Shown piece after piece: positions 19,048 to 42,339 of a stretch of DNA of 43,450 bases. The stretch comes from a virus. A program made the position numbers and the translations under genes. The notes beneath the pieces are model-generated. The model was not told where the DNA came from. It worked only from the letters and a program-made list of their open reading frames with translations, and searched no databases. The stretch's first letter is position 1; the number at the start of each line of letters is the position of its first letter. The DNA lies in the IMG/VR virus record IMGVR_UViG_3300032144_000420, positions 1 to 43,450 of that record; one strand, 5' to 3'.

Positions 19048-20715
19048 ATGGTGACCTACCGCGTCACCACTTCAGGCGCGCGCCGGGTCACCAGCTCGGG
19101 CGCAGCGCGCGTGCTCTCGACCAGCGAGATCGCGCCGGCGCTGCTGCCGTTCAGCCCCTATCTGGGCTTTCACGCGGACGAGGACAACGGCAACGACGAT
19201 CCGGCGCTCGTCACGGTCATCTTCGACGCCTGCCGCGTGACGCCGGCGAGCGCGAACGGCGCCATGGCCCTCTGGCGCCACCTCGATCACTCGAACTACA
19301 CCGACCTCCAGCCGCAGCGCGCGGCCGCGGCGGCACTGGGCTACGCGTCGCCCACCATCATCGTCGTGCCGTTCACGAACGGGGAGCCTGGCACGAACGA
19401 CGAGGCGGAGAACCTCGACGCGCTGGATTTCCTCGCCGAGACGGTGGCGCTCTACGCCGCGGAAAATCCGATCTTTGGTTTCGGCAACCTGACCGCCGAG
19501 AACTTCATGCCGGGGGCGCTGCCCAAGGATCGGGCCGCTGCGTGGTTCGCGCTCGAGGCGCGCGCCTTCAAGATCATCTCCGACCTCGGCTTCCGCTGGT
19601 GCGCCACCGACGACCTCGGCCTCAACGAGCTGGTCCGCAACATCACCAAGCGCCGCGCCGCCTGGGCGCTCGAGGGCCTCGACCCGGACGATTGCGAGTA
19701 CCTCTGCGCGCACTGCTATGTGGATGCCGGCTGGGTGCCGGCGCACTATCTGCTGGCGCAGGAGTCTCTGCGGCGAGCCCAGGTGACCACGCCAATCCGG
19801 ATGACCGAGCTCGCCTTCGGCTTCCTCGGCGTCGGCTTCACGGACGAGGACAAGCCCTGGCTCCTCACCGAGTTCCAGCCGGGGAATCCGCCGGGCTACC
19901 CCGCGCATTCGCTGACCTGGACGCGCCTGATGATGGAGTGGTGCCACGCCAACGGCATTCACGCCCTCATCTTCGACCAGACGCGCTACCAGAAGGCCGG
20001 CGAGTGGACGAGCTGGGGCGAGATCTACACCGAGTTTCAGAACCTGCAGCCGGCCTTCGTGGCGCCGCCGGTCGGCACGCTCTGGTTCAAGCGCACGAGC
20101 GCCGCGCAGCGCGCCTATTCGCTCCGCCTCTCGAATGGCGGCACGGTGGAGCAGGCCACCGCCGCGGCCGAGCGCGTCAAGGCGGGCTACCTTTTCACCA
20201 TCGTGGACGAGCCCGCCGCCGCGTCCACGGCCAGCCTTCGTGAGCTCGCTGACGTGCGCCTGGAGATCTCCGAAGACGGCGCCGACCTGGCTCTCGAGAA
20301 CGGCGATCTCGCGCTCGAGCAAGGTCTGGCCAGCTCGGCGCTCGTGAGCCTCTTCAGCGACGCCCGCGCGCCGGCGTCGGTGACGCTGCCGGAAGGCGGC
20401 TCGCGGCGCGGCTTCTGGGGCGAGAGCGCCGAGGAGGGATTCGGCAGCCTGCTCTGGCTGCTCGATCGTGAGAAGGTGACGCCGACGACGATCGAGCGCA
20501 TGCGTGCCTACGCGGCGGACTCGCTGCAGTGGCTGGTGGACGAGGGCATCGCCGATCAGGTGGACGTCGTGGCCGAGCGCGGCAACACCCACCAGGTGAA
20601 TCTGCTGGTCCAGCTGCGGCGCGGGGAGGCCCGCCGGTGGGAGCGCGTTTGGGCCGGAACGGACGCGGATCCGCGCGTCATTTCGGGGTTGCGAGTGCAG
20701 ATCTTGACCTTCTAG
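19048..20715 (+). CDS. TIM-barrel glycosidase-like domain fused to gp46
   Basis: The protein has 555 residues. Residues about 30-340 look like a clan GH-A type TIM barrel. The strand-4-like IFGFGNLTAEN carries Glu151, and the strand-7-like IRMTELAFGF carries Glu254. The spacing of about 100 residues between the two acids fits acid/base and nucleophile. From about residue 395 the Mu gp46 baseplate domain follows (ADVRLEISEDGADLALENGD, then SRRGFWGESAEEGFGSLLWLLDREK, then YAADSLQWLVDEG). Mu gp46 alone is a small wedge component. The fusion puts a possible carbohydrate-cleaving domain on the baseplate, where it could degrade capsule or peptidoglycan. The gp46 part is certain; the hydrolase part is inferred from pattern. 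Confidence 0.75.
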   Translation: MVTYRVTTSGARRVTSSGAARVLSTSEIAPALLPFSPYLGFHADEDNGNDDPALVTVIFDACRVTPASANGAMALWRHLDHSNYTDLQPQRAAAAALGYASPTIIVVPFTNGEPGTNDEAENLDALDFLAETVALYAAENPIFGFGNLTAENFMPGALPKDRAAAWFALEARAFKIISDLGFRWCATDDLGLNELVRNITKRRAAWALEGLDPDDCEYLCAHCYVDAGWVPAHYLLAQESLRRAQVTTPIRMTELAFGFLGVGFTDEDKPWLLTEFQPGNPPGYPAHSLTWTRLMMEWCHANGIHALIFDQTRYQKAGEWTSWGEIYTEFQNLQPAFVAPPVGTLWFKRTSAAQRAYSLRLSNGGTVEQATAAAERVKAGYLFTIVDEPAAASTASLRELADVRLEISEDGADLALENGDLALEQGLASSALVSLFSDARAPASVTLPEGGSRRGFWGESAEEGFGSLLWLLDREKVTPTTIERMRAYAADSLQWLVDEGIADQVDVVAERGNTHQVNLLVQLRRGEARRWERVWAGTDADPRVISGLRVQILTF

Positions 20716-23159: not shown

Positions 23160-23723
23160 ATGGCCAAGAAGGCTGCCTACAACGCCGGATCCACGCTCGT
23201 CGAAGGCTTCTACGACGACTCCATCCACACCTCGATTCCCTCGCCCAGCCTCGCGCTCTCGGACGAGGAGTACTCGAACGCGCTCGCGCAGCAGGCCGCC
23301 GGCAAGGTGCTGAAGGTCATTGCCAGCGCGATGGACTACTCCGACCCGGCGATCGTGCTCGCCGACTACAAGGCCCAGAAGAAGCGGGTGGTGGACGCGC
23401 AGGCCCGGCGGGAGTTCAACCGCCACCACGACTTCGACAACGCCGGCTTCATCGCCTACCAGCTCAAGCTGACGGAGTACATGTTCGCGAAGGACGACGG
23501 CACGCCCACCGCCGGCGAGTACCCGATGCTCAAGGCGCAGGCCGACGCGGACGGCGTCAGCCTGGCCGACGCCATCACGGCCTTCGGCACGGCGCACGGC
23601 ACGCTGACCGGCCTGCTCGACAACATCGAGGTGGTGCGCCTGAACACCCGCGAGGCCATCGACGCGGCCGCCGACGTCGCCGCCGTGAATGCCCTGATGG
23701 CCGCGATCGCGTGGCCGGCGTAG
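23160..23723 (+). CDS. Tail fibre assembly-like protein with DUF4376-type domain
   Basis: The protein has 187 residues. Residues about 13-50 (VEGFYDDSIHTSIPSPSLAL, then SDEEYSNALAQQAAGK) resemble the beta-hairpin and helix of tail fibre assembly proteins that read as GYY...IP...EIT..EW. The C-terminal half (about residues 95-187) is helical and similar to DUF4376, often paired with fibres. It is likely a chaperone for the preceding fibre, perhaps retained in the virion. The next gene begins inside its end. Confidence 0.78.
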   Translation: MAKKAAYNAGSTLVEGFYDDSIHTSIPSPSLALSDEEYSNALAQQAAGKVLKVIASAMDYSDPAIVLADYKAQKKRVVDAQARREFNRHHDFDNAGFIAYQLKLTEYMFAKDDGTPTAGEYPMLKAQADADGVSLADAITAFGTAHGTLTGLLDNIEVVRLNTREAIDAAADVAAVNALMAAIAWPA

Positions 23724-24130
23724 CCGTGCCCGGTTCGATCGTCGGCCTGGTCAGCGATGCCGGCGCCGCCGCGCTGGCGGCCGCCGGCGTGCTGGGTGCG
23801 GACGAGCTGGGGATCCCGCTCGGCATGGAGCAGGTCACCGGAGGCGTCGTGGCTTTTCTGATTCTGCGCGAGGTGTTTGCCTTCTTGCGCGAGCGCTACG
23901 GCCGCAACGTGCAGCACGACGACAGCACGGAGCGCCTGCAGGTGCAGAAGAACATCCACGACGTCCTCCAGCAGCAGACCCAGATCCTCGCGCGCATGGA
24001 GGAGAGCCAGGCGCAAATCCTGGCGATCACCACGCAGTACCAGGCCACCGGGATCTGCCCGCTTACGGATCCGCTGGAGCGCCAGCAGACTATCCGCGAC
24101 ATTGGAGACGAGGCTCGGCGGCCGCGCTGA
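23711..24130 (+). CDS. Membrane-anchored coiled-coil protein, possible lysis role
   Basis: The protein has 139 residues with a GTG start at 23711, overlapping the previous gene by 13 bases; GTG 23726 is an alternative. A Gly/Ala-rich N-terminus and the hydrophobic segment at about residues 42-60 (TGGVVAFLILREVFAFL) are followed by a charged coiled coil (about residues 72-110, LQVQKNIHDVLQQQTQILAR). The layout resembles an inner-membrane spanin or a small holin-associated protein, but no specific motif proves it. It is the last plus-strand late gene. Its TGA abuts the stop of the convergent antitoxin gene with no gap. Confidence 0.6.
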   Translation: MAGVAVPGSIVGLVSDAGAAALAAAGVLGADELGIPLGMEQVTGGVVAFLILREVFAFLRERYGRNVQHDDSTERLQVQKNIHDVLQQQTQILARMEESQAQILAITTQYQATGICPLTDPLERQQTIRDIGDEARRPR

Positions 24131-24409
24131 TCAGGTTTTCTTCAGCGGCGCGGCCTTGAGCACCAGGCGGTGGCCGAGGGCGTGCAGGATCTCCGCGAGC
24201 TTCGTCACGGTGAGGTTCTGCGCGCCGGAGAGGTAGACGGTCACGGTCGGCTGCGACACGCCGAGCAGCTTCGCCAGCGCGGTCTTCGTCAGCTTCTTCT
24301 TGGCCATGAGGTTCGAGATCAGGTCGGCCGCCTCGATCCTCGCGCCGACGGCCTCCCACTGGCGGGGATCCGCGGCGCGGACTTTCTCCGCGTAGGATTT
24401 CGTTTTCAT
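24131..24409 (-). CDS. HigA-type XRE antitoxin / transcription regulator
   Basis: The protein has 92 residues. The helix-turn-helix (about residues 39-65, LTKTALAKLLGVSQPTVTVY) and following helix (NLTVTKLAEILHALGHRLVL) match XRE antitoxins. It lies 39 bases downstream of the toxin gene on the same strand. Toxin first, antitoxin second is the HigBA order. It should neutralise the toxin and repress the pair by binding the palindromic promoter at 24821-24838. It is convergent with the late gene ending at 24130. Confidence 0.85.
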   Translation of the reverse strand: MKTKSYAEKVRAADPRQWEAVGARIEAADLISNLMAKKKLTKTALAKLLGVSQPTVTVYLSGAQNLTVTKLAEILHALGHRLVLKAAPLKKT

Positions 24410-24448
24410 TTTGGTGTTGGGCTGGAAGTGTAAGAGTGCGCGATCCGG

Positions 24449-24820
24449 TTACCCGGGGCGCGCGAGGTGTTCGGTCAGGATGCGCTGTGCGCGCTCCAGT
24501 TCCTGCGGGGGCCACACGTCCTTTTTCTTCGTGAAGCCGTGCAGCAGGAACCACACCTGGCCGCGGCGGTAGCAGGAGATCCGCGCCTGGTGCGCTTTGA
24601 TCTCGAAGATCGGGGCGACCACCATGCGGAAGTGCTCGCGGTTCGGGATCGCGCCGGTCGCCGCGAGGCGCTCGCAGCGGCGCAGCACTTGGATCCGCTC
24701 GTCGAGCGCGGCGACCTGATCCAGGTAGACCCGCGCGTGTTGGATTCCCGCCGCGTCGGCGGCGAAGCGCACCGCGAACTTCGCGCCGGGCGCCACTACG
24801 TCGTTCTCGTTTCTTTCCAT
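24449..24820 (-). CDS. HigB-type toxin, Gp49-like RelE family
   Basis: The protein has 123 residues from ATG 24820. Family features of phage-derived Gp49-like toxins are present: a long N-terminal helix, RMVVAPIFEIKAHQARISCY as central strands, and VWFLLHGFTKKKDVWPPQEL near the end. The toxin probably cuts mRNA on the ribosome, as in other HigB proteins. The start ATG lies at the predicted transcription start, so the mRNA may be leaderless. An in-frame extension upstream (to 24904) is rejected because it runs through the promoter. Confidence 0.83.
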   Translation of the reverse strand: MERNENDVVAPGAKFAVRFAADAAGIQHARVYLDQVAALDERIQVLRRCERLAATGAIPNREHFRMVVAPIFEIKAHQARISCYRRGQVWFLLHGFTKKKDVWPPQELERAQRILTEHLARPG

Positions 24821-24855
24821 AGTATATATACTAAGTATGCGGCGGCCGGTTACAA
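24821..24855 (-). promoter_or_regulatory. Promoter and palindromic operator of the HigBA pair
   Basis: On the minus strand TTGTAA (24855-24850) and TAGTAT (24833-24828) lie 16 bases apart, a fair sigma-70 pair. Two overlapping perfect palindromes, AGTATATATACT (24821-24832) and ATACTAAGTAT (24828-24838), cover the -10 region. They are an obvious binding site for the antitoxin. The run is AT-rich in a GC-rich setting. Confidence 0.65.
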
Positions 24856-24922
24856 GGGAAATCCAGGAAATCCGGGGGGAGGGTGTCCGGTTTCCCCGCC
24901 TCATCCGAGGGCCCGAAATAGG

Positions 24923-24976: not shown

Positions 24977-25861
24977 CTAGGTCACCCTGCCGGCGGCGGC
25001 GCGCAGGGCGCGCGCTCGCCCCCACTCGGCCGCGCCGGCGGCCGCGAGCAGCCCCAGCGGCCCCAGGATCTGACCCAGCCCGGTGCCTCCCAGCAGGCCG
25101 GCGGTGGTGCCGCTGGCCGCGGCCGCGGCCTCCCGCGCCGCATCGGCGGCAGCGCGCGTCTCCGCCGCAGCGCGCTCAGCAACGGCCAGGCGCTCCTCGA
25201 TGGCCGTCAGGGCCGGCGGCGCCGGCGCGGCGGCGAGCAGCTTGGCCAGCTCGGCGCGCGTGGCCTCCGCCGCGGCGAGCGCGGCCGCCACCTCGGCCGC
25301 CTTCTCCACACTCTCGCCGGCGGTGGCCTCGGCGGCGGCGACGCGCGCCTCGGCCTCGGCCGCGCGGCGCGCCAGGTCCTCGAGCGCCGCGGCCCGCTCC
25401 GCGGCGGCGGCCGTCAGCTGGACCTCGAGCAGCGCCTTCTCCGCGCGGGCCTGGTCCAGCTCGAGCTGCGCGGCGGCGGCCTTCTCCTCGGCGGCGGCGA
25501 CGTTGCCGAAGAAGGGCACGTGCGAGCAGGAGAAGCTCGCCACCGTCACGCCGGCGGCTAGGATCAGCGGGACCAGGAGCAGCGCGCGGCCGGCGGTGGG
25601 CGGCGGCTTCGGAGCCGCGGCCGCCGGCGGGTCGTCCGGAATGGAGCCGCTCGACTTGCCCTTCGTCACGACGTCGGTCACGGTCTGGCCGGCGATGAAC
25701 GAGATCACGATCGCGGCGAAGAACTCGCGAAGCTGCTCGGCCACGTCCGGCGGGATGCCGAAGATCGGCATCGATACCGCGACCATCATCAGCATGCCGC
25801 CGAGGCCGGCGCGCCAGCGTTTGGAGGAGAGGGCGAAGTTGGAAGGGCTGGGGTTGACCAT
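24977..25861 (-). CDS. Ala-rich multi-pass membrane protein with long coiled coil
   Basis: The protein has 294 residues. Hydrophobic segments lie at about residues 20-36, 46-62, 92-113 and 258-282. Between the third and fourth is a charged, Ala-rich coiled coil of about 140 residues (EEKAAAAQLELDQARAEKAL and onward). The third segment ends in SFSC, a weak lipobox-like site. A holin-like hydrophobic N-terminus plus a long periplasmic coiled coil might mean a combined holin/spanin, but this is inference. It is transcribed against the late genes and followed by its own hairpin. Other options are a superinfection-exclusion or envelope protein. Confidence 0.6.
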   Translation of the reverse strand: MVNPSPSNFALSSKRWRAGLGGMLMMVAVSMPIFGIPPDVAEQLREFFAAIVISFIAGQTVTDVVTKGKSSGSIPDDPPAAAAPKPPPTAGRALLLVPLILAAGVTVASFSCSHVPFFGNVAAAEEKAAAAQLELDQARAEKALLEVQLTAAAAERAAALEDLARRAAEAEARVAAAEATAGESVEKAAEVAAALAAAEATRAELAKLLAAAPAPPALTAIEERLAVAERAAAETRAAADAAREAAAAASGTTAGLLGGTGLGQILGPLGLLAAAGAAEWGRARALRAAAGRVT

Positions 25862-25927: not shown

Positions 25928-26770
25928 ATGGAATCCTGGCCGCATGCTGTTCGCGTGGCACCTGATCCCCCCCAGCTGCGGCGAATTTTGATTGTCGACA
26001 AGGTCTATCCCGCGTACTCGAAGCAGTATTTAGAGGTCGCCTGCACCGGAGGGATTCAGGCGGACGATCATCGGCTTGTCCGGCTCTTTCCTATCCCCTT
26101 CCGGCTACTCGAGGTCGAGCAGAGGTTCAGGAAATTCCAATGGATCGACTGCGAGGTCAGGCCGGATCCGGCGGACCCACGCCCAAGCACACTTCGTGTA
26201 TCCGCTGACACCATAAGAGTGGGAACTGCCATCCCGTCGGAGCAAAGTGAAGAAAGGAGGCAGATCATCACCGAGTGCAAGGATCACTTCTCTTCCGTCG
26301 AGGAGCTTCTCCGCGCCAACAAGAAGCACCAGACTTCAATCGGAATCGTTCAGCCGGCTGAGATCATCGGTGTGAGAGCCGTGTTGAAGACGGAGGCAGA
26401 ACGCGAAGAATGGCTTGAGCGGGAACGGACTGTCATGTCCCAGCCTGTCCTCTTTGGCCCACACCCGAAGCCAATTGATTTTCCGTATCTTGCCTTCAAG
26501 GTCACGTGGCGCTGCGACGACAAGGAATGCAAAAACCACACCATGAATTTGCACTCGTGGGACATTCACGAACTGGCGCGCAAATACATCAGGGATCCCC
26601 AACGAATCGAGAAGGTGGAGGAAGCCATGCGGAAGATGTTGAACTTGGAGAAGTACGATCTCTTTCTCTTCCTGGGAAACTTCAGGACGGTGCAGGTCAA
26701 TTTCGGTTTGATGTCGGCGATCAGCATCGTGAAACCTGAGATCAAATCTCCTACGCTATTCGATAAGTGA
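25928..26770 (+). CDS. Dual-OB-like protein, partner of DUF488; candidate defence
   Basis: The protein has 280 residues from ATG 25928; a TTG at 25988 is an alternative that would start just before LIVDKVYPAYS. The region ADDHRLVRLFPIPFRLLEVE, then FRKFQWIDCEVRPD, then DPRPSTLRVS, recalls a family I remember as DuOB (dual OB-fold), linked to bacterial conflict systems; the recall is moderate. A CDDKEC pair lies near residue 196. Composition is much more AT-rich than the phage, indicating recent gain. It overlaps the DUF488 gene as GTGA, so the two are translated as a unit. No enzyme motif was recognised in it. Confidence 0.65.
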   Translation: MESWPHAVRVAPDPPQLRRILIVDKVYPAYSKQYLEVACTGGIQADDHRLVRLFPIPFRLLEVEQRFRKFQWIDCEVRPDPADPRPSTLRVSADTIRVGTAIPSEQSEERRQIITECKDHFSSVEELLRANKKHQTSIGIVQPAEIIGVRAVLKTEAEREEWLERERTVMSQPVLFGPHPKPIDFPYLAFKVTWRCDDKECKNHTMNLHSWDIHELARKYIRDPQRIEKVEEAMRKMLNLEKYDLFLFLGNFRTVQVNFGLMSAISIVKPEIKSPTLFDK

Positions 26771-27228
26771 AAAGAGCGAACATCCGAACGAAGAACCAGG
26801 CGCCCGCCTGTCATGGAATTGGCTACCAGGGCCAGTCACTGGAGGAACTCTGTTCCAGGCTCAAAAAGGCGAAGGTAGACCTCGTCATCGACGTCCGAGA
26901 GCGAGCTTGGAGTCAGAGGCCCGACTTCCGTAAAGGAAAGCTCGAGGATGGCTTGCGACAGGTCGGCATCCGATACGAGCACTTTCCACTTGCCGGCAAT
27001 CCATACAGGCCACAGAACGGAGAACCGCCCGACTTCAACGCCTGCGCCGCCAAATACCAGAATTACATTGCATCAAAGCCCGAACTTGTAGTAGCCCTCT
27101 ATCACCTGCTCCTCGATAATCGGGTTGCATTTTTCTGCTATGAGGCGGACTCTGAGCAATGCCACCGCAGTGTGCTCGTGAGTACCATCAAGCAAATGGC
27201 CGGAGCCGTGATGTACGAGAATCTCTAA
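26767..27228 (+). CDS. DUF488-family protein
   Basis: The protein has 153 residues and a GTG start in a GTGA overlap with the preceding gene. Family features are present: HGIGYQGQSLEELCSRLKKA at the start, VDLVIDVRERAWSQRPDF, GIRYEHFPLAGNP, and the Cys/His motif FFCYEADSEQCHRSVL near the end. The DUF488 fold has conserved Asp/Arg and CH.R residues that suggest an active site, but the reaction is unknown. Coupling with an OB-fold-like partner suggests the pair acts on or senses nucleic acid. It belongs to the AT-rich cargo island. Confidence 0.8.
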   Translation: MKRANIRTKNQAPACHGIGYQGQSLEELCSRLKKAKVDLVIDVRERAWSQRPDFRKGKLEDGLRQVGIRYEHFPLAGNPYRPQNGEPPDFNACAAKYQNYIASKPELVVALYHLLLDNRVAFFCYEADSEQCHRSVLVSTIKQMAGAVMYENL

Positions 27229-27975: not shown

Positions 27976-29397
27976 CTATTCAACCATGATCGTATTGACC
28001 CCAGCGGAAACCGTCAGTGTACAGGTCATTGGAGGAAGCGACGGCTTCCAGATGATGAAACCCAGCCGCCCACCAGGAACAACACCACTAGGCATGCAGA
28101 TTCCGTTCTCATCCGTGACAAGTGTGGGAAAGGACCTGTACCAGGGGTCATCATCCACGATCGCATAGTCGACGGACATATCTCGTAAAGGATTCGAGGA
28201 AGCGTCCACCAGTTTGATCAAGATGACATCGGGGTCATCTGCGGCGGGCGCCCGCATCATTTTGATGGGAGGAATTTCTTCAGCCTGACTATTGGCGTGA
28301 GCGTGAGTGGCGACAAAGCAGTACTCAGCCTGCTGCCATGCAGTAATTGAGAGTTCCCCACCGGCAGGTGTTGCCACCTGAAATCGCCCCTCAGCATCCG
28401 TGAGGGTCGGAACAGCAACTACAGTGTACATCTCGTTGTCATCTCCATTCGAGAGAGAGGCAATGCCAAGGTCTCGATCGGAGTCATAAAAATCAAAAGC
28501 GTCATTGAGCATGAGGACACGGATAATCACCTGAGCGCCTTTCGCAGGCGAGCCATCCGCCCGAAGTATGGAGCCCCTGATGACAGGGCGCTGAATCACC
28601 GACACACGCTCTTGGTAAGCGGCACCAGCCATAGTTCGCGCCTCGACGATCTTGGGATGTGTGAGAGGACTAGTAATCCGCATCAGGGCCAATCCAGAAC
28701 CCGGTAGTGTGACTCTGTATGACTGGTCTGGCGCTCGTTCACACGGAAGCCACTCAATAGCTCCGAACATTGACTCGTATAGGGCCATCCGAAACTGAAT
28801 GGAGTTGCGAGGATAGATCTTTGAAATCGGTGTCTCCTCTAGATCCAATGCTCTCTCCCAAGTCTGAGGGTCCACGAGAGCTGCTTTCACAGTGGCAGGA
28901 GCCGGCAAACCAGTTGTTGCAGACTGGACAAATACTTCCAACCTAGATTGATATGGAATCACGAGTGGCACAGTTGAACCTTCCTCGGGCAGAGCAAACT
29001 CCAACCGATATCGGAGTGAGTCAGCGGACGGCAGGCTTGACGCTAAATACTCCAACCAACGAACATTGTCTCGGCTCACCAATGAGCCAACTTCCACATC
29101 CTCGTAAGAGCGGTTGATGCGGAGTCTTTCATCATCGACAATCAGCCATGTCTCAGGAGGAATGATGCTCACACCTGTCAATGCATCTGTGAGTACCAGG
29201 CGTGCCTTCCCACTTGAAGCCGGACGCCGGTCGATTCCTTCGATTATTCCTGATTCGACTACCTCCGGTGTTGAGTCAGTACGAACCCCCTCGGGATTCT
29301 GGATTTCACGCTCCGCAAAGTCACAATACCTAATTAACAGAATGGCGGCTACTAGTGCGGTTAGCACTAGAAAGCCGCCAATCATTCTTTTCCTCAT
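27976..29397 (-). CDS. Membrane-anchored protein with carboxypeptidase-regulatory-like domains
   Basis: The protein has 473 residues from ATG 29397; an upstream TTG at 29403 would add two. A basic N-terminus and one hydrophobic segment (about residues 7-24, IGGFLVLTALVAAILLI) anchor it, with the rest outside the cytoplasm. Beta-sandwich-like repeats are seen, such as PVIRGSILRADGSPAKGAQV followed by TLTDAEGRFQVATPAGG, typical of carboxypeptidase-regulatory-like or bacterial Ig-type domains. Such proteins are usual for bacterial cell envelopes, not phages. The gene is AT-richer than the phage. It is likely host-derived cargo that alters the lysogen surface. Confidence 0.65.
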   Translation of the reverse strand: MRKRMIGGFLVLTALVAAILLIRYCDFAEREIQNPEGVRTDSTPEVVESGIIEGIDRRPASSGKARLVLTDALTGVSIIPPETWLIVDDERLRINRSYEDVEVGSLVSRDNVRWLEYLASSLPSADSLRYRLEFALPEEGSTVPLVIPYQSRLEVFVQSATTGLPAPATVKAALVDPQTWERALDLEETPISKIYPRNSIQFRMALYESMFGAIEWLPCERAPDQSYRVTLPGSGLALMRITSPLTHPKIVEARTMAGAAYQERVSVIQRPVIRGSILRADGSPAKGAQVIIRVLMLNDAFDFYDSDRDLGIASLSNGDDNEMYTVVAVPTLTDAEGRFQVATPAGGELSITAWQQAEYCFVATHAHANSQAEEIPPIKMMRAPAADDPDVILIKLVDASSNPLRDMSVDYAIVDDDPWYRSFPTLVTDENGICMPSGVVPGGRLGFIIWKPSLPPMTCTLTVSAGVNTIMVE

Positions 29398-29525
29398 TTG
29401 CAAGCTACCAGAGGCGGTCGAATGCGCACGATCCTCTCAATTGCTGTCTTGGACCAGTTTGGTGCTCCTTATCCGAAGACTCGGAGGTAAATGATTGAGC
29501 GGAATTGTGCACATGGCGCCCTGCA

Positions 29526-30170
29526 TCAGGTGCCATTGGCTCCGTTGTTGCCATTGGATCCGCCAGGGCTGCCGCCACTACCAGTACCACCAGTACCACC
29601 GGTTCCGCCAGTGCCGGGTTGGTCGAGGAGAATCGATCCTGAGCCCGTGATGGTGATCGTGGTATTGCCACCATTACCTCCATTCCCACCATTGCCTCCA
29701 CTCCCGCCTACGCCTGAGCTCCCGCCTTTCTCGCCACACGTACCTCCAGGAGCTCCGTTGCCGCCATTTCCGCCGTCACCTCCATTACCACCGACGGCAG
29801 TTGCCTGGCCGTTCTCGACAACAACTGTTGCATGACCTCCATTGCCACCGGTCCCCCCCGCACCTCCGTCGCCACCCTTTGCTCCCGAGCAGTCATCACT
29901 GTTGCAGCCGGTCACGCCATGCCCGGCATGGCCTCCGGCAGTGCCATTACCACCCTGAGCAACGCCGTTAGCGGAGCCGGTCTTGAAAGCGAATGCACTC
30001 GCTCCGTTGTTGCCGTTGGTTCCATTAGAACCGCTATCGCCACAGGCCATGATCGGAGAAGCCGCAGGTGACGCCACAGGTGACGCCACAGGTGTTTCAC
30101 GATGAGTGAGTCCCAAGCTCAGCAGTGGGATCCCAATGAGTGCCAGCAGACTAGTGTATGGTGATTTCAT
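29526..30170 (-). CDS. Secreted Gly/Asn-rich repeat protein
   Basis: The protein has 214 residues from ATG 30170 (a longer frame from 30218 is less likely). A signal peptide-like start (about residues 1-20, SLLALIGIPLLSLGL) is followed by VASPVASPAASP repeats. The rest is mostly GGNGG, GGTGG and GGDGG triplets, similar in style to PGRS or collagen-like sequences. Short acidic and Cys-bearing breaks occur. The repeats suggest an extracellular or surface polymer-like protein. No catalytic motif is seen. It lies 128 bases upstream of the membrane-anchored gene on the same strand, so the two may form a surface-modifying unit. Confidence 0.6.
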   Translation of the reverse strand: MKSPYTSLLALIGIPLLSLGLTHRETPVASPVASPAASPIMACGDSGSNGTNGNNGASAFAFKTGSANGVAQGGNGTAGGHAGHGVTGCNSDDCSGAKGGDGGAGGTGGNGGHATVVVENGQATAVGGNGGDGGNGGNGAPGGTCGEKGGSSGVGGSGGNGGNGGNGGNTTITITGSGSILLDQPGTGGTGGTGGTGSGGSPGGSNGNNGANGT

Positions 30171-30218
30171 GTTGTTAACGGTACGAGGCAGGAAGCTGCC
30201 TTGTTTCCGCCTGCTCAA

Positions 30219-36181: not shown

Positions 36182-36502
36182 ATGAACGACCTCGCACGCC
36201 GCTTCTCCTACCACCACCCATCGAACGTCACGGTGGCAGAGTCCCACGATCTGGTGCGGACCAGCATCCACCAGATGGCGCGCATCCTCAGCGAGTTGCC
36301 GGAGTCGCGCGAGCGCGCGCTCGCGATGACCAAGCTCGAGGAGGCCATGTTCTGGGCGAACGCGGCGATCGAGCGCTACCAGCAGGGATTCCCCTCCCTG
36401 CAGGCGGCGACTGCGCACGGGCACCCGGCCGCGCCGGCGGTGAGCCCGAAGCCGACGCCTGACCTGCCGCCGGTGGCAGAGACCATGCCGGCGCCCAACT
36501 GA
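36182..36502 (+). CDS. acb2: Acb2/Tad1-like cyclic nucleotide sponge (anti-CBASS)
   Basis: The protein has 106 residues. Residues 1-68 (RRFSYHHPSNVTVAESHDLV, then LSELPESRERALAMTKLEEA and MFWANAAIERYQ) match the Acb2/Tad1 helical hairpin: the F-x-YH-P start, the PESRE-x-ALA-x-TKLEEA-x-x-WANA-x-I signature. Acb2 proteins from other phages form hexamers that bind cyclic nucleotides made by CBASS immunity and so block it. The C-terminal 35 residues are a Pro/Ala-rich tail that most such proteins lack. It lies next to the other early genes. The call rests on the motif only. Confidence 0.75.
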   Translation: MNDLARRFSYHHPSNVTVAESHDLVRTSIHQMARILSELPESRERALAMTKLEEAMFWANAAIERYQQGFPSLQAATAHGHPAAPAVSPKPTPDLPPVAETMPAPN

Positions 36503-36548: not shown

Positions 36549-37151
36549 ATGGCAAGCTCAACCACCAGGCATCGACTCACCACCCAGATCCACCTCGGCG
36601 GAATCAAATTCTCCCCGGTGAAGAAGAACGACAACGGCCACGTCACGCTCGACTGGACCGCCGCCGGCGAGGACATCGCCATCGTTCTCACCTCTCTCGT
36701 GCCTCTGCAGGGCGGCACGGCCGCCATGAAGCTCACGGCCGGGCGCGCCGGCGAGTGGAAGGGCAACGCGCACGTGGCGACCGTGTCTCTGAAGCCGCCG
36801 AAGAAAGCCGGCGAGCAGCCGGCGGTAACCGGGCGCCTCGTCATCTACGGCCCGGAGAAGCTACTCCAGGACCTTCTCGGCCTGCGCCTGGAGGCCGCGC
36901 AGATGAGCCTCACGCTCGCGACGCTCGAACTCGAGAAGCTGCAGTCGGACCTGCCTTTCGAAGGAGAAGAGGAGGATTCGCGGCAGCAGCGGTTGCCGGG
37001 TGGTGTCGGCGAGACCACGGTCGAATTGAGCGCCGCAGGTCCGGATGGAAAGCGGCACTCAGTCAAGGCCACCGTGAAGCAGCTGAAGCAGTTGAAGAAG
37101 GCAGCGGCTGGCGCGTTGGTGCGCCAGGGCCTGAAGCGGCGCAGGAAGTAA
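36549..37151 (+). CDS. Early phage protein, unknown
   Basis: The protein has 200 residues. A strand-rich N-terminal part (LTTQIHLGGIKFSPVKKNDN, then TLDWTAAGEDIAIVLTSL), a helical middle (LLQDLLGLRLEAAQMSLTLA) and a basic C-terminal end (KQLKQLKKAAAGALVRQGLK) are seen. There is no membrane segment or catalytic motif. It lies 2 bases before the methyltransferase start. The function is unknown; a DNA-binding partner is possible. Confidence 0.55.
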   Translation: MASSTTRHRLTTQIHLGGIKFSPVKKNDNGHVTLDWTAAGEDIAIVLTSLVPLQGGTAAMKLTAGRAGEWKGNAHVATVSLKPPKKAGEQPAVTGRLVIYGPEKLLQDLLGLRLEAAQMSLTLATLELEKLQSDLPFEGEEEDSRQQRLPGGVGETTVELSAAGPDGKRHSVKATVKQLKQLKKAAAGALVRQGLKRRRK

Positions 37152-37153
37152 CT

Positions 37154-38614
37154 GTGGCGGGCCTCGTCGTGGATCTGTTCGCCGGCGGCGGAGGAGCCTC
37201 GCTCGGCATCGAGCTGGCCCTCGGCCGTTCGCCGGACCTGGCCATCAACCACGACGCGGCCGCGCTCGCGGTGCACCAGGCCAACCACCAGAACACTAGG
37301 CACCTGACCTCCGACATCTGGGAGGTCCAGCCGCGCAAGGCCACCGGCGGCCAGCCCGTCGAGCTGCTCTGGGCCTCGCCGGACTGCACGCACTTCTCGG
37401 TGGCAAAGGGCGCCGTACCGCGGTCGAAGAAGAACCGCTCGCTGGCCTGGAAGGTAGTGCACTGGGCCGCCGCGGTGCGCCCGCGGGTGATCCTGCTGGA
37501 GAACGTGCGCGAGTTCCAGGGCTGGGGCCCGCTCGGCGAGGACGGCCGGCCGTGCAAGCTGCGCGCCGGCACCATCTTCGCGGCCTGGGTGAGCCGGCTG
37601 CGCGCGCTCGGCTACGTGGTGGAGTGGAAGGTGCTGGACGCGGCGGACTACGGCGCGCCGACGCGGCGCCGGCGGCTGTTCGTGGTGGCGCGCCGCGACG
37701 GGCAGCCAGTCGTCTGGCCGACACCGAGCCACGGCCCGGGCCGCGCGCCATGGCGCACCGCGGCGGAGTGCATCGACTGGAGCCTGCCCTGCCCGTCAAT
37801 CTTCGACAGGAAGAAGCCGCTCGCTGAGAAGACGCAGCGCCGGATCGCCGAGGGCCTGCGCCGCTACGTGCTGGAGGACCCGAAGCCCTTCCTGGTGCAG
37901 GTGAACCACGGCCGTGACACCTGGCGCGGTCAGCCGTTGGTGAATCCGCTCGCGACGGTAACCGCGAGCCAGCGAGGCCACGCGCTCTGCATACCGGCGC
38001 TAGTAGAGATGAACCACTCAAACCAGCCGCGCCGCCCTGACGCTCCGCTCGGCACGATCACGACCCAGGACAACAGGTTCAACCTGGTGTCCGCCTGGCT
38101 GGTGAAGCACTTCGGCGGCGTGGTCGGGCACGAGCTGACGAAGCCAACCGGCTCCGTCACCACCAGGGACCACCACTCGGTAGCCGCTGCCACGCTGGTG
38201 AAGCTGCGCGGCGAGTGCAACGGCGCGGACCTGCGCGCGCCGGCGCCGACGCTCACCGCCGGCGGCACCCACGTGGCCGAGGTCCGGGCCTTCCTGACGA
38301 CCTACTACGGCGGCGGCTCGCCCGGGCAGTCGCTGCTCGATCCGATGCGCACCGTGACGTCCAAGCACCGCCTGGGCCTGGTGCTGGTGGAGGGCGTCGA
38401 GTTCCAGATCGCGGACATCGGCATGCGGATGCTGGAGCCGCACGAGCTCCTGCGCGCCCAGTTCGGCGAGCACGCGGCCGGCTACGACCTGAGCGCCGCG
38501 AAAACCAAGTCCGCGAAGGTGCGCCTCATCGGCAACAGCGTCTGCCCGGACGTGGCGGCCGCCCTGGTGCGCGCGAATGCCGGCGAAATTGCAGAGAAGA
38601 CAATCGCGGCATGA
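37154..38614 (+). CDS. DNA cytosine-5 methyltransferase
   Basis: The protein has 486 residues from GTG 37154. The motifs of C5 enzymes appear in order: I DLFAGGGGASLG (near residue 7), IV PDCTHFS with the catalytic Cys (near residue 76), VI ENVREF (near residue 116), VIII RRRRLFVV (near residue 174), and X IGNSVCPDVAAAL near the end. Between VIII and X, five P..T-V/I-T elements recur with a period of about 33 residues (near 262, 295, 328, 361 and 395). These repeats replace a usual recognition domain. It probably protects phage DNA or controls gene use. No matching restriction enzyme is seen. Confidence 0.9.
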   Translation: MAGLVVDLFAGGGGASLGIELALGRSPDLAINHDAAALAVHQANHQNTRHLTSDIWEVQPRKATGGQPVELLWASPDCTHFSVAKGAVPRSKKNRSLAWKVVHWAAAVRPRVILLENVREFQGWGPLGEDGRPCKLRAGTIFAAWVSRLRALGYVVEWKVLDAADYGAPTRRRRLFVVARRDGQPVVWPTPSHGPGRAPWRTAAECIDWSLPCPSIFDRKKPLAEKTQRRIAEGLRRYVLEDPKPFLVQVNHGRDTWRGQPLVNPLATVTASQRGHALCIPALVEMNHSNQPRRPDAPLGTITTQDNRFNLVSAWLVKHFGGVVGHELTKPTGSVTTRDHHSVAAATLVKLRGECNGADLRAPAPTLTAGGTHVAEVRAFLTTYYGGGSPGQSLLDPMRTVTSKHRLGLVLVEGVEFQIADIGMRMLEPHELLRAQFGEHAAGYDLSAAKTKSAKVRLIGNSVCPDVAAALVRANAGEIAEKTIAA

Positions 38615-40323
38615 CACGCCACCTCCACCTCGCCGCGGGCCTCGAGCTCCCGCTCTCCACGGTCACCCAGCGCCTGGCCTTCATGGGCCGGAGCGGCTCG
38701 GGCAAGACCTACGCTGCCGGCAAGCTGGCCGAAGAGATGCTCGACGCCGGCGCCCAGGTCGTGGTGCTGGATCCGGTCGGCAACTGGTACGGCCTGCGCG
38801 TCGGCGCCGGCGGCAAGGGCAAGGGCATCGAGATCCCGGTGCTCGGCGGCGACCAGGGCGACATCCCGCTCGAGCCCGCCGGCGGCGCGCTCGTGGCCGA
38901 CACGATCGTGGACCGCGGGATCTCGGCCGTGGTGGACGTCTCGCGGTTCCGGAAGGGCCAGCGCAGCCAGTTCGTGACTGACTTCGCCGAGCAGCTCTTC
39001 CACCGGAAGAAGAGCACGCGCACGCCCATGCACCTCATCGTTGAGGAGGCGCACGTCTTCATCCCGCAGCGCACCATGCATGGCCAGGAGCGCCTGCTCG
39101 GCGCCATGGAGGACCTGGTGCGTCTCGGCCGCAACTACGGCATCGGCGTCAGCCTGCTCTCCCAGCGGCCGCAGAGCGTCAACAAGGACGCCCTCAACCA
39201 GACTGAGATCCTGTTCGCCCTGCAGCTCAACGGCCCGCAGGAGCGCGCTGCGATCAAGGCCTGGGTGGACGACCACGGCGTCGAGCTGCCGAAGGACAAG
39301 GATTTCATCCGCGAGCTGCCGAGCCTCGAGGTCGGCCAGGCCTGGGTCTGGTCGCCGCAGTTCCTCAAGGTCCTGAAGAAGGTCCACATCGCGAAGAAGC
39401 GGACCTTCGACGCCAGCGCGACGCCGGACGCTTCAAGCGCCGGCGCGGCGGCGCCGGTCAAGCCGCTCGGCGAGAAGGACCTCGAGGCGCTGCGCGGCGC
39501 CATGAAGGACGTCGTGAAGCGCGCGGAGGAGGAGGATCCGAAGGCGCTGCGCCGGCGGATCGCCGCGCTCGAGAAGGAGGCGGCCACGCTGCGCGCCGCG
39601 CCGGCGCCGGCGGGCAAGGTGAAGCGCGTCGAGGTGGCGATCGTCGCCGAGCCCCTGGTGAAGCGGATCGAAGCCATGCAGGCGGCCGCGGACAAGACGC
39701 TGCAGGCGCTTCAGACCGCCATCCAGGCGCTGCGCGCGGACATGGAGCGGCGCGCGGCGAAGGTTGCGCCGGCGCCGGCTGCAGCTGCGGTGATGCCTCC
39801 GAGGCATATTTCGCGGCCTCCTGGTCATACTCCGGCCCCTTCGAGGAATATTCCCAGCGCCGGCGGCCGGTCCGGCGACGCGCGCATGCTCGCCGCGCTC
39901 GCCGGCGCGCCGCAGGGTCTCACCCGCATCCGCCTGGCCACGCTCGCCGGCATGAAGGTCACCGGCGGCAGCTTCAGCACCTACCTCTCACGGCTGCGCG
40001 CCGCCGGCCACATCGAGGACGTCGGCGACAAGGTGCGCGCAACGGCTGCAGGCCTCGCTGCCGCCGGCGGCGCGCGGCCCGCGCCCACCCCGGAGCAGGT
40101 GCGCGATCTCTGGCTGCCTCGGATGAGCGGCGGCGCGCGGCGGATGCTGCAGCTGCTGATCGACGCCGCGCCGAACGGCTTGCCGCGCAGCGAGCTGGCG
40201 GCGCGCGCCGAGGTCGCCCAGACGGGCGGCAGCTTCAGCACCTACCTGTCGCGCCTGCGCAGCAATGGCCTGGTCTTCGAGGACAACGGCGTGCTCTACG
40301 CCGCGGAGGAACTCGTCGGCTGA
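38611..40323 (+). CDS. HerA-like ATPase with two C-terminal winged helices
   Basis: The protein has 570 residues and its ATG overlaps the methyltransferase stop. The ATPase has Walker A GRSGSGKT (residues 26-33), DP with GNW (near residue 51), and Walker B HLIVEEAH (about residues 141-148). A sensor-like RNYGIGVSLLSQRPQ follows near residue 173. It matches the HerA/DUF87 group of hexameric DNA translocases. A long helical region (about residues 275-395) and two copies of a winged-helix segment GGSFSTYLSRLR (about residues 451 and 538) follow. The role in this phage is unknown; it may act in DNA processing or segregation. Confidence 0.82.
   Translation: MTRHLHLAAGLELPLSTVTQRLAFMGRSGSGKTYAAGKLAEEMLDAGAQVVVLDPVGNWYGLRVGAGGKGKGIEIPVLGGDQGDIPLEPAGGALVADTIVDRGISAVVDVSRFRKGQRSQFVTDFAEQLFHRKKSTRTPMHLIVEEAHVFIPQRTMHGQERLLGAMEDLVRLGRNYGIGVSLLSQRPQSVNKDALNQTEILFALQLNGPQERAAIKAWVDDHGVELPKDKDFIRELPSLEVGQAWVWSPQFLKVLKKVHIAKKRTFDASATPDASSAGAAAPVKPLGEKDLEALRGAMKDVVKRAEEEDPKALRRRIAALEKEAATLRAAPAPAGKVKRVEVAIVAEPLVKRIEAMQAAADKTLQALQTAIQALRADMERRAAKVAPAPAAAAVMPPRHISRPPGHTPAPSRNIPSAGGRSGDARMLAALAGAPQGLTRIRLATLAGMKVTGGSFSTYLSRLRAAGHIEDVGDKVRATAAGLAAAGGARPAPTPEQVRDLWLPRMSGGARRMLQLLIDAAPNGLPRSELAARAEVAQTGGSFSTYLSRLRSNGLVFEDNGVLYAAEELVG
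39793..39854. repeat. Three AT-rich iteron-like sites within the HerA-like gene
   Basis: Similar elements GAGGCATATTTC (39801), CTGGTCATACTCC (39821) and GAGGAATATTCC (39843) are spaced 20 and 22 bases, about two helical turns. The palindromes ATGCCTC-C-GAGGCAT (39793-39807) and GGAATATTCC (39845-39854) flank the set. The surrounding gene is strongly GC-rich, so the AT composition stands out. Confidence 0.45.
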
Positions 40324-40352: not shown

Positions 40353-41423
40353 ATGAACACCGCCATCGCACCGATTTCCCTCGTCCAATCCCGCATGCCG
40401 TACATGATCGGCGTGCACGGCCCCGACACCGCCCTCGCCGGCGGCAAGGAGGTCCGGCCCTACGTCGCCTACGCGCTCGACGCCTACCTCCGCGCGCTCG
40501 GAGCGGATCCCCTGCGGCCCCTCGATGCGCGCGGCGCGGTCGCGCACGTCAAGATCCGCGACGAGGGCGGCCGCTGGCGGCGCGGCAAGGCGCCGGACAT
40601 CGCGCCTTCGGTGAAGGTCTTCCTCGAGGATGCCAAGAGGCTGGGGTTCCGGACGGTGGTGGCCTGGGTGCCGCACGGCGCATGGGAGCCGCAGTCGTTC
40701 GGACCGGCGACGCCGGCGGACGGGAAGGCCATCGCCAACGCCGCGGAGAGCCTGGAGCGCACTCTCGGCGACCGCGTGGACGCCTACATCTTCGGCAACG
40801 AGCAGGAGGCGCTGCTCGGCGACGTGCGCACCTCGCGCGAGGACGAGGCCTACTTCCGCGCCGAGGCCATCGCGGGCCGCACCTGGGCATCGCGGCACAA
40901 GTTCTGGATCGCAGGCGCGGACATGTCCGTCCAGAACCTGGTGGACAGCCTGCCGGCGCGGGTCCGCGCCTGGAGCCTCGAGATCGGGAAGGACATCCCG
41001 CTGCACGGCCTGGCCGAGCACCTCTACGGCGAGGGCGGCGATCAGCCGGAGCACCTTGAGCCGATGCAGCGCGCGGTGAAGGCCAAGCTCAGCTACCTGC
41101 CGCAGATCATCGCGACGGAGTGGGCGATCGGCTTCGAGGGCGTCGGCGTGCCGCGCGGCTCGAAGACCTTCGTCCACGACGGGCGCGCCCGGGCCTTCAA
41201 CGCGGCGTTCGCCACCGAGCTGGGGGCGCGCCAGATCGCCGGCTGCTACTTCACCCAGCGCGAGCTGCAGGACGAGTCGGGCGCGCTCACGGAGGCCGGC
41301 AGGGGCCTGAAGGATGCGCTCTGGGCGCCGGCGGGCACGGTGTTCGAGGCGCCGGTGATGCAGCCGCGGAAGGCCATGCTCAAGGGCATGCGGCTCGAGG
41401 CGGAGGCGAAGGAGGCGGCGTGA
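40353..41423 (+). CDS. Clan GH-A-like TIM-barrel hydrolase, candidate endolysin
   Basis: The protein has 356 residues with no signal peptide. The strand-1-like MIGVHGPD, the strand-4-like DAYIFGNEQEALL with Asn149-Glu150 (the NE pair that marks clan GH-A acid/base residues), and the strand-7-like IIATEWAIGFEG with Glu256 fit a retaining glycosidase; the two Glu are about 106 residues apart. The substrate cannot be told. It is followed directly by a small membrane protein and a tiny lipoprotein, so it may be the phage endolysin, although no known endolysin family was recognised. A capsule- or glycan-modifying enzyme is the main alternative. Confidence 0.6.
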   Translation: MNTAIAPISLVQSRMPYMIGVHGPDTALAGGKEVRPYVAYALDAYLRALGADPLRPLDARGAVAHVKIRDEGGRWRRGKAPDIAPSVKVFLEDAKRLGFRTVVAWVPHGAWEPQSFGPATPADGKAIANAAESLERTLGDRVDAYIFGNEQEALLGDVRTSREDEAYFRAEAIAGRTWASRHKFWIAGADMSVQNLVDSLPARVRAWSLEIGKDIPLHGLAEHLYGEGGDQPEHLEPMQRAVKAKLSYLPQIIATEWAIGFEGVGVPRGSKTFVHDGRARAFNAAFATELGARQIAGCYFTQRELQDESGALTEAGRGLKDALWAPAGTVFEAPVMQPRKAMLKGMRLEAEAKEAA

Positions 41424-41743
41424 CCGAAAACCCGAAGGGACTCGATCCTGCCGGCCAGTGGTACCAGGCCTGCTTGCGCCTCTTCACGGCAGCGTCTTTC
41501 GCCATGGATTTTATGGTGTTCGCTGCGGCGCTCGCAGGCCTGTTCACTCCGCTTGCCTGGCTCTTCCTCGTCGTGATCGTGCTCTGCGTGCTGCAGCAGT
41601 ACGTGACCAAGTTGTACGCAAAGACCATGCTGGATCCGGATCCGCCGATCTGGTGGAACCACTATCTCAGAATGTTCGACCTCGTCACGCAGCTGGGGGT
41701 CTTGGCCGCGTGGATCCTCGTTCTCCAACAGCGCGGAGCATGA
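41420..41743 (+). CDS. Small three-pass membrane protein, possible holin
   Basis: The protein has 107 residues and a GTG start in a GTGA overlap with the hydrolase gene. Hydrophobic segments lie at about residues 23-42 (FTAASFAMDFMVFAAALAGL), 43-60 (FTPLAWLFLVVIVLCVLQ) and 86-102 (VTQLGVLAAWILVLQQ). Size and layout fit a holin, but sequence alone does not prove it. It follows the enzyme gene and overlaps the lipoprotein gene. Confidence 0.6.
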   Translation: MTENPKGLDPAGQWYQACLRLFTAASFAMDFMVFAAALAGLFTPLAWLFLVVIVLCVLQQYVTKLYAKTMLDPDPPIWWNHYLRMFDLVTQLGVLAAWILVLQQRGA

Positions 41744-41850
41744 GCCGGCTCCTCCTGCTGTTGGCTCCCGCGGCGGCCGGCTGCGGCGAGCAGCACCGCT
41801 CCTGCGCGGTGAATCGGAGGCTACCGCGTGACAAGGTTTATGATCGCTAG
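41740..41850 (+). CDS. Tiny lipoprotein, possible outer spanin-like peptide
   Basis: The peptide has 36 residues and an ATGA overlap with the previous gene. A short hydrophobic leader (MSRLLLLLAPAAAGC) ends in a lipobox with Cys15, which should be lipidated. The mature part of about 20 residues has a second Cys and is basic. Small lipoproteins after a holin and endolysin are typical outer spanins (Rz1-like), but this one is not Pro-rich. Its 3' end overlaps the convergent DUF2321 gene by 30 bases, which may reflect insertion of that gene and change of the original tail. Confidence 0.4.
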   Translation: MSRLLLLLAPAAAGCGEQHRSCAVNRRLPRDKVYDR

Positions 41851-42339
41851 GAATTTAGCCTTTGCTGCGCCAGCGAGTGCTCCGCTGATGGCTTCCTTCA
41901 GTGTCATTCGTCCGATTTCCTTGATGGAGGGCCAAATAGTTGCAAACTGAGCTTCAGCGAGCTCCACCTCCGGCGTCTGATTGCTCAGTGCGCGTGTTGC
42001 CTTCTTCAACGTTTGCCGTTGCTTTGGCGAAAGCTCTAAAGTCAAATCGAGGAGCGCATCGATTGCTTTGAACCTTTGCCGAGTCCAGGGGAAGGGCCGT
42101 CCGCATGCATCACAGTACGGCGGGGCCTCTATCCCAGGGAGTGACCAGCCCTCACAATCGCCAAGGATAGGCTCTTTACAAGATGGGCTGGTGCAGGCCG
42201 AAATAACCTTCTTGCTACATTTAGGACAACGTCCACGTCTAAGTACATGCCCAGGAAGAACTTGCCTACTTACCGTGTGGCCGGAGAGGCAGATTGCTGC
42301 GTGAAACTGAATGCCTTGATCAGGACCGAAGCGGCTCAT
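41821..42339 (-). CDS. DUF2321 zinc-ribbon protein, AT-rich cargo
   Basis: The protein has 172 residues. Features of DUF2321 are present: AAICLSGHTVSRQVLPGHVL near residue 14, CPKCSKKVISACTSPSCKEP, a PGIEAPPYCDACGRPFPWTR element near residue 68, and a helical C-terminal half. Two zinc ribbons are likely. The function is unknown, and the family often occurs as isolated accessory genes. It is more AT-rich than its neighbours and lies beside the integrase, a common place for cargo. Confidence 0.8.
   Translation of the reverse strand: MSRFGPDQGIQFHAAICLSGHTVSRQVLPGHVLRRGRCPKCSKKVISACTSPSCKEPILGDCEGWSLPGIEAPPYCDACGRPFPWTRQRFKAIDALLDLTLELSPKQRQTLKKATRALSNQTPEVELAEAQFATIWPSIKEIGRMTLKEAISGALAGAAKAKFLAIINLVTR

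Follow-up and report, generated by a model that had tools for sequence, protein, structure and literature searches.

In glycoside hydrolases of clan GH-A, strands 4 and 7 each carry a catalytic carboxylate at their end (PMC8447715), and the invariant active-site residues of the GH5 exo-mannosidases are R, N, E, H, E and W (PMC8233224). The hydrolases of phage tails are commonly polysaccharide depolymerases, of which free-enzyme forms are also known (PMC6116005). The lysis of Mu, for its part, employs a SAR endolysin, a releasin and a two-part spanin (PMC9239132).

The locus described here, found in a window of 43,450 bp (the whole stretch of DNA analysed, a phage record of IMG/VR), encodes a predicted hydrolase that can be compared with several described systems. 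Like the enzymes of clan GH-A (GH5, GH53, GH10 and GH39 such as PslG), the hydrolase displays a predicted (beta/alpha)8 order with NE at strand 4, HxY at strand 6 and Glu at strand 7, and GH-A chains top its fold look-up; unlike them, it has no detectable sequence match to any GH family and no evident strand-8 Trp, and its model is of low confidence. With the TIM barrels of phage and GTA tails (megatron or GTA_TIM, and the GP46 fusion of this very phage) it shares a TIM-barrel-type domain, the GP46-fused domain being a true relative, whereas the hydrolase itself is a free protein of cytosolic type, encoded outside the tail operon and without detectable similarity to GTA_TIM. The glycoside hydrolases of soil and environmental viruses, such as a GH5 mannanase or a chitosanase, are likewise phage-encoded outside the virion genes, but they can be placed in known CAZy families and have relatives in bacteria, while the hydrolase here is an orphan. 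Finally, a soluble enzyme without signal lies beside a small multi-pass membrane protein, as in the lysis cassettes of Gram-negative hosts (holin, endolysin and Rz/Rz1), from which the locus differs by the lack of a known muralytic domain and of an inner spanin, by a doubtful lipoprotein ORF and by its early-type operon.

The record, devoid of end repeats, encodes a temperate Mu-like phage with a contractile tail, some of the gene names being a reading of the translations. Its plus-strand structural genes comprise terminase, portal, protease-capsid fusion, sheath, tube, tape measure, DNA circularisation protein, GpP, Gp45, GP46, baseplate J, Gp48 and fibre, and a minus-strand integrase gene occupies the right end. 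At its left end the record opens with the A of an ATG, and at its right end it stops on the base where the integrase gene begins, from which we infer a provirus trimmed at gene edges. Because the record begins and ends exactly at start codons, an endolysin gene located just outside may be missing. A scan of genome contigs for TerL led to one Magnetococcales locus only, and a comparison of the regions that follow TerL in six Pseudomonadota genomes found no shared tail or lysis genes.

The hydrolase and its relative in the tail

The hydrolase gene (40353-41423, plus strand) opens with an ATG and encodes 356 residues; the following gene (41420-41743, plus strand) opens with a GTG, overlaps the hydrolase stop by 4 bp (GTGA) and encodes a membrane protein of 107 residues. 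Both ORFs are real genes, with a clear codon signal in frame (LLR per codon of 0.517 and GC3 of 0.96 for the hydrolase, 0.286 and 0.80 for the membrane protein). The hydrolase lacks a signal peptide and obtained zero family matches against Pfam, PHROGs, NCBIfam and PDB sequences. Nor was any similarity found with the endolysins of two related phages, or any recognised muralytic domain.

In all the collections searched, the sole relative of the hydrolase is a domain of the tail protein encoded at 19048-20715 of the same phage. No other was recovered from 2.9 million viral contigs, a phage set, a plasmid set and GTDB contigs, or from 25 related viral records and 398 sampled Pseudomonadota genomes, several of these searches reaching close relatives only; no close relative of the phage itself was found. 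Two weak matches among the 398 genomes were rejected, one falling within a long sensor-like frame and the other within a beta-glucosidase-like frame, and neither locus showing a full-length relative. Similarity to the GTA_TIM protein of RcKemmy was undetectable.

An AlphaFold model of the hydrolase was built from two sequences, the enzyme and its own tail relative, and is of low confidence (pLDDT 40.6, pTM 0.41). As for the TIM barrel with an NE motif announced by the sequence-only reading, this poor model (TM-scores 0.3-0.4) has eight strands alternating with helices, and N149-E150 follows strand 4 (residues 144-149). In the same low-confidence model, strand 6 carries H223-x-Y225 and strand 7 (255-260) contains E256, so placed that the motifs fit the layout of clan GH-A. 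Candidates exist for all the invariant residues of GH5 exo-mannosidases except Trp, the strand-8 Trp typical of GH5 not being evident. GH5, GH1 and other GH-A chains make up nearly all of the best 50 VIA-align rows (Z 8.6-9.9, rmsd 5-6 Å) and much of the Foldseek list, with aldolases nearly level (Z 8.7-8.8); GH5-annotated phage proteins are among the structural neighbours. No sequence method used gave a match to a GH-A family profile and, since no GH family is matched in sequence, we call the hydrolase GH-A-like only and assign it to no GH family. Judging from the model, it is likely a GH-A-type TIM-barrel enzyme, with E150 as putative acid/base and E256 as putative nucleophile.

The tail relative (19048-20715, plus strand) was delineated by Pfam, PHROGs and pairwise comparison, and joins an N-terminal hydrolase-related domain to a C-terminal GP46 baseplate wedge domain (PF07409). 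Its kinship with the hydrolase is marked (E 4e-7 / 3e-8, the second value and a shuffle Z of 11 coming from the pairwise comparison). At the strand-4 position N-E is replaced by N-L, while HxY and the strand-7 Glu are kept; with a Leu where the hydrolase has its strand-4 Glu, the domain may bind without cutting and may thus be a binder only. An AlphaFold model of this protein was discarded, its quality being too poor. That the only relative of the hydrolase is a tail domain suits a polysaccharide hydrolase no less than it suits an endolysin. One could also imagine a GH-A-type TIM barrel recruited as an endolysin and released by the membrane protein, with the baseplate relative serving entry, in which case a single fold lineage would provide for both entry and exit through the wall; we consider this improbable.

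Neighbouring genes and the search for lysis functions

The sequence-only reading had proposed a new type of lysis cassette, in which hydrolase, membrane protein and a lipoprotein would act as endolysin, holin and outer spanin. Were the locus to serve lysis, the GH-A-like enzyme would cut the glycan chains of peptidoglycan once the membrane protein, as holin, had released it from the cytosol. The product of 41420-41743, described as a three-pass protein, has two strong hydrophobic stretches (hydropathy peaks at residues 40-58, 2.65, and 85-103, 1.68), and the third, around residues 22-40, is weaker. It has the size and topology of a holin, namely a small protein with 1-4 transmembrane segments. 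No credible family match in Pfam or PHROGs, an outcome that a holin may also give, and no relative were found for it, nor any similarity to the holins of related phages.

The third supposed gene fared less well. The 36-aa ORF (41740-41850, plus strand) overlaps the membrane-protein gene by ATGA and carries a plausible lipobox-like motif, AAGC within LLLLLAPAAAGC, with Cys at residue 15 and a mature peptide of 22 residues. Its LLR of -0.073 ranks near the 2nd percentile when compared with 36-codon stretches read in frame and around the 75th-90th when compared with such stretches read off frame, so that the codon usage of the ORF is not separable from that of non-coding frames. Over its last ten codons the ORF runs antisense to a foreign low-GC gene on the minus strand (41821-42339, phrog_16447), which bounds the operon downstream and is probably the DUF2321 match of the window. 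Lipoprotein-like starts, defined by a pattern drawn up after the 36-aa sequence was known, occur at 4 of the 2209 start sites of the window against 0-4 per shuffled window, and two of the four are this ORF and a longer start of the same ORF. Such a start is unusual at one given place, yet not rare across the window.

No inner spanin, with a transmembrane segment and a coiled coil, lies beside the 36-aa ORF, and in Rz/Rz1 systems an outer spanin is not expected to function on its own, without an inner one. The nearest ORF noticed of that shape, 24977-25861, is on the opposite strand. With its weak coding signal, its missing partner and its short mature peptide, the 36-aa ORF is not supported as an outer spanin and probably is not part of the hydrolase and membrane-protein system; of the three overlapping genes, only the first two are upheld.

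The claim that no lysozyme, amidase or transglycosylase is seen elsewhere in the window stood up to closer inspection within the record. Pfam identified no known muralytic family in the 87 non-structural ORFs and most structural genes, there is none among the PHROGs matches listed (25 of 43 families in one listing), and a tblastn search of the window disclosed no related endolysin, not even as a remnant. In two architecturally related phages, lysis genes come after the tail genes (PMC8601537). Such is the order in Bordetella phage PBb001, which has head and tail gene order in common with this phage, and in Rhodobacter phage RcKemmy, with common terminase and head, where holin and endolysin follow the tail genes. 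Here, the post-tail position where related phages keep their holin is occupied by a gene whose 139-aa product shows two hydrophobic stretches and ends in a coiled-coil-like tail (23711-24130, plus strand), an alternative holin candidate for which no relatives were found; no enzyme accompanies it, and accessory genes follow.

The region beyond harbours several further elements. A Gp49-like protein and an HTH protein (24131-24904, minus strand) probably form a toxin-antitoxin pair of HigB-HigA type. The gene at 24977-25861 (minus strand) has a strong coding signal and encodes 294 residues, among them three hydrophobic stretches and a long Ala-rich part resembling a coiled coil; no relatives were found, and the protein could be holin- or inner-spanin-like. 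A candidate PDC-M19 defence system of two genes, PDC-M19B and a DUF488 protein matching PDC-M19A (25928-27228, plus strand), is inserted after the tail module and has a GC3 below that of the phage genes. The lower-GC genes at 27976-30218 (minus strand) encode a carboxypeptidase-regulatory-like protein, hydrophobic at its N-terminus, and a Gly-rich collagen-like protein; they are probably lysogenic cargo.

Upstream of the hydrolase, a gap of 29 bp without promoter or terminator match separates it from the gene of a HerA-like ATPase (38608-40323, plus strand), itself preceded by a cytosine-C5 DNA methyltransferase gene (37151-38614, plus strand), and the hydrolase and membrane-protein genes, closing the operon, probably share it with these two. 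The HerA-like ATPase bears winged-helix-like repeats at its C-terminus, has nine relatives among the viral contigs and is apparently a widespread phage gene. Further upstream and in the same direction as the trio, 36182-36502 (plus strand) encodes a phrog_1454 family protein, probably the window's match to the Acb2/Tad1 hairpin domain of anti-CBASS and anti-Thoeris sponge type. According to translations and one annotated record, HerA stands in related viral records among SMC-like, helicase-loader and similar DNA genes, and neither the hydrolase nor recurrent lysis genes were seen beside the HerA relatives.

This setting opens another explanation, in which the hydrolase would be an early accessory protein acting inside the cell with the methyltransferase and the HerA-like ATPase, in DNA modification or counter-defence, or else a TIM barrel of other chemistry. 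The probable single operon speaks for it, and the low confidence of the model leaves room for other TIM-barrel enzymes; we nevertheless find it very unlikely in view of the GH-A motif set, of the tail relative, and of HerA relatives that come without a hydrolase.

As to lysis, the enzyme without signal peptide, the directly overlapping multi-pass membrane protein and the record without recognisable endolysin speak for such a cassette, and in the circularised phage the pair would sit a few genes upstream of the terminase. Against this, the operon is shared with the methyltransferase and a HerA-like ATPase whose counterparts belong to DNA-metabolism modules, the two relatives place their lysis genes elsewhere, resemblance to their endolysins and holins is lacking, and the papers searched contained no GH-A endolysin. 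The inner spanin is missing next to the pair, and no conservation of the trio was seen: it was not found in the viral contigs, the 25 related viral records, the phages, the plasmids, the GTDB scan or the 398 genomes, close relatives being what these searches reach best. We hold a lysis cassette to be rather unlikely, though it keeps a real chance.

A polysaccharide-cutting enzyme as the favoured reading

On the whole, the evidence favours an ordinary polysaccharide-cutting enzyme over a new lysis cassette. We tentatively propose, at somewhat short of an even chance, that the hydrolase, an orphan, is a retaining glycoside hydrolase of clan GH-A-like type and cuts a polysaccharide of the host envelope or the extracellular space, of capsule, exopolysaccharide or O-antigen type. 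Hydrolysis would proceed by double displacement, E150 serving as acid/base and E256 as nucleophile. Because it has no export signal, the enzyme would stay in the cytosol until the cell opens, and would then act outside as a free depolymerase, freeing the progeny from the slime layer and opening neighbouring cells to infection. The 107-aa membrane protein, probably co-translated with the hydrolase, could have a role in export, membrane opening or superinfection control. It must be said that a lysis role would explain more simply both the coupling to a membrane protein and the missing recognised endolysin.

A glycoside hydrolase could also serve the lysogen, as an auxiliary metabolic gene aiding the breakdown of environmental polysaccharides in the manner of the GH5 mannanase or chitosanase of soil viruses. 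Virus-encoded glycoside hydrolases, including a GH5 mannanase, are known and active (PMC6786970; PMC9485262), and the position of the hydrolase at the prophage edge near int is a frequent one for cargo. Such genes, however, usually have close bacterial homologues, of which the genome scan and the 398 sampled genomes contained none; the enzyme has no signal peptide and its relative sits in the virion, and we hold this role to be clearly unlikely.

GH5-like and other glycoside hydrolases of phages being already known (PMC6786970), what is new here is an orphan member, unless the enzyme proves muralytic. Should the enzyme be a depolymerase, it would contribute an orphan GH-A-like lineage employed by the phage in two settings, as part of the virion and as a free protein. 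Should it be muralytic, endolysins would gain a new catalytic class, and the apparent lack of an endolysin in some phages would become easier to explain.
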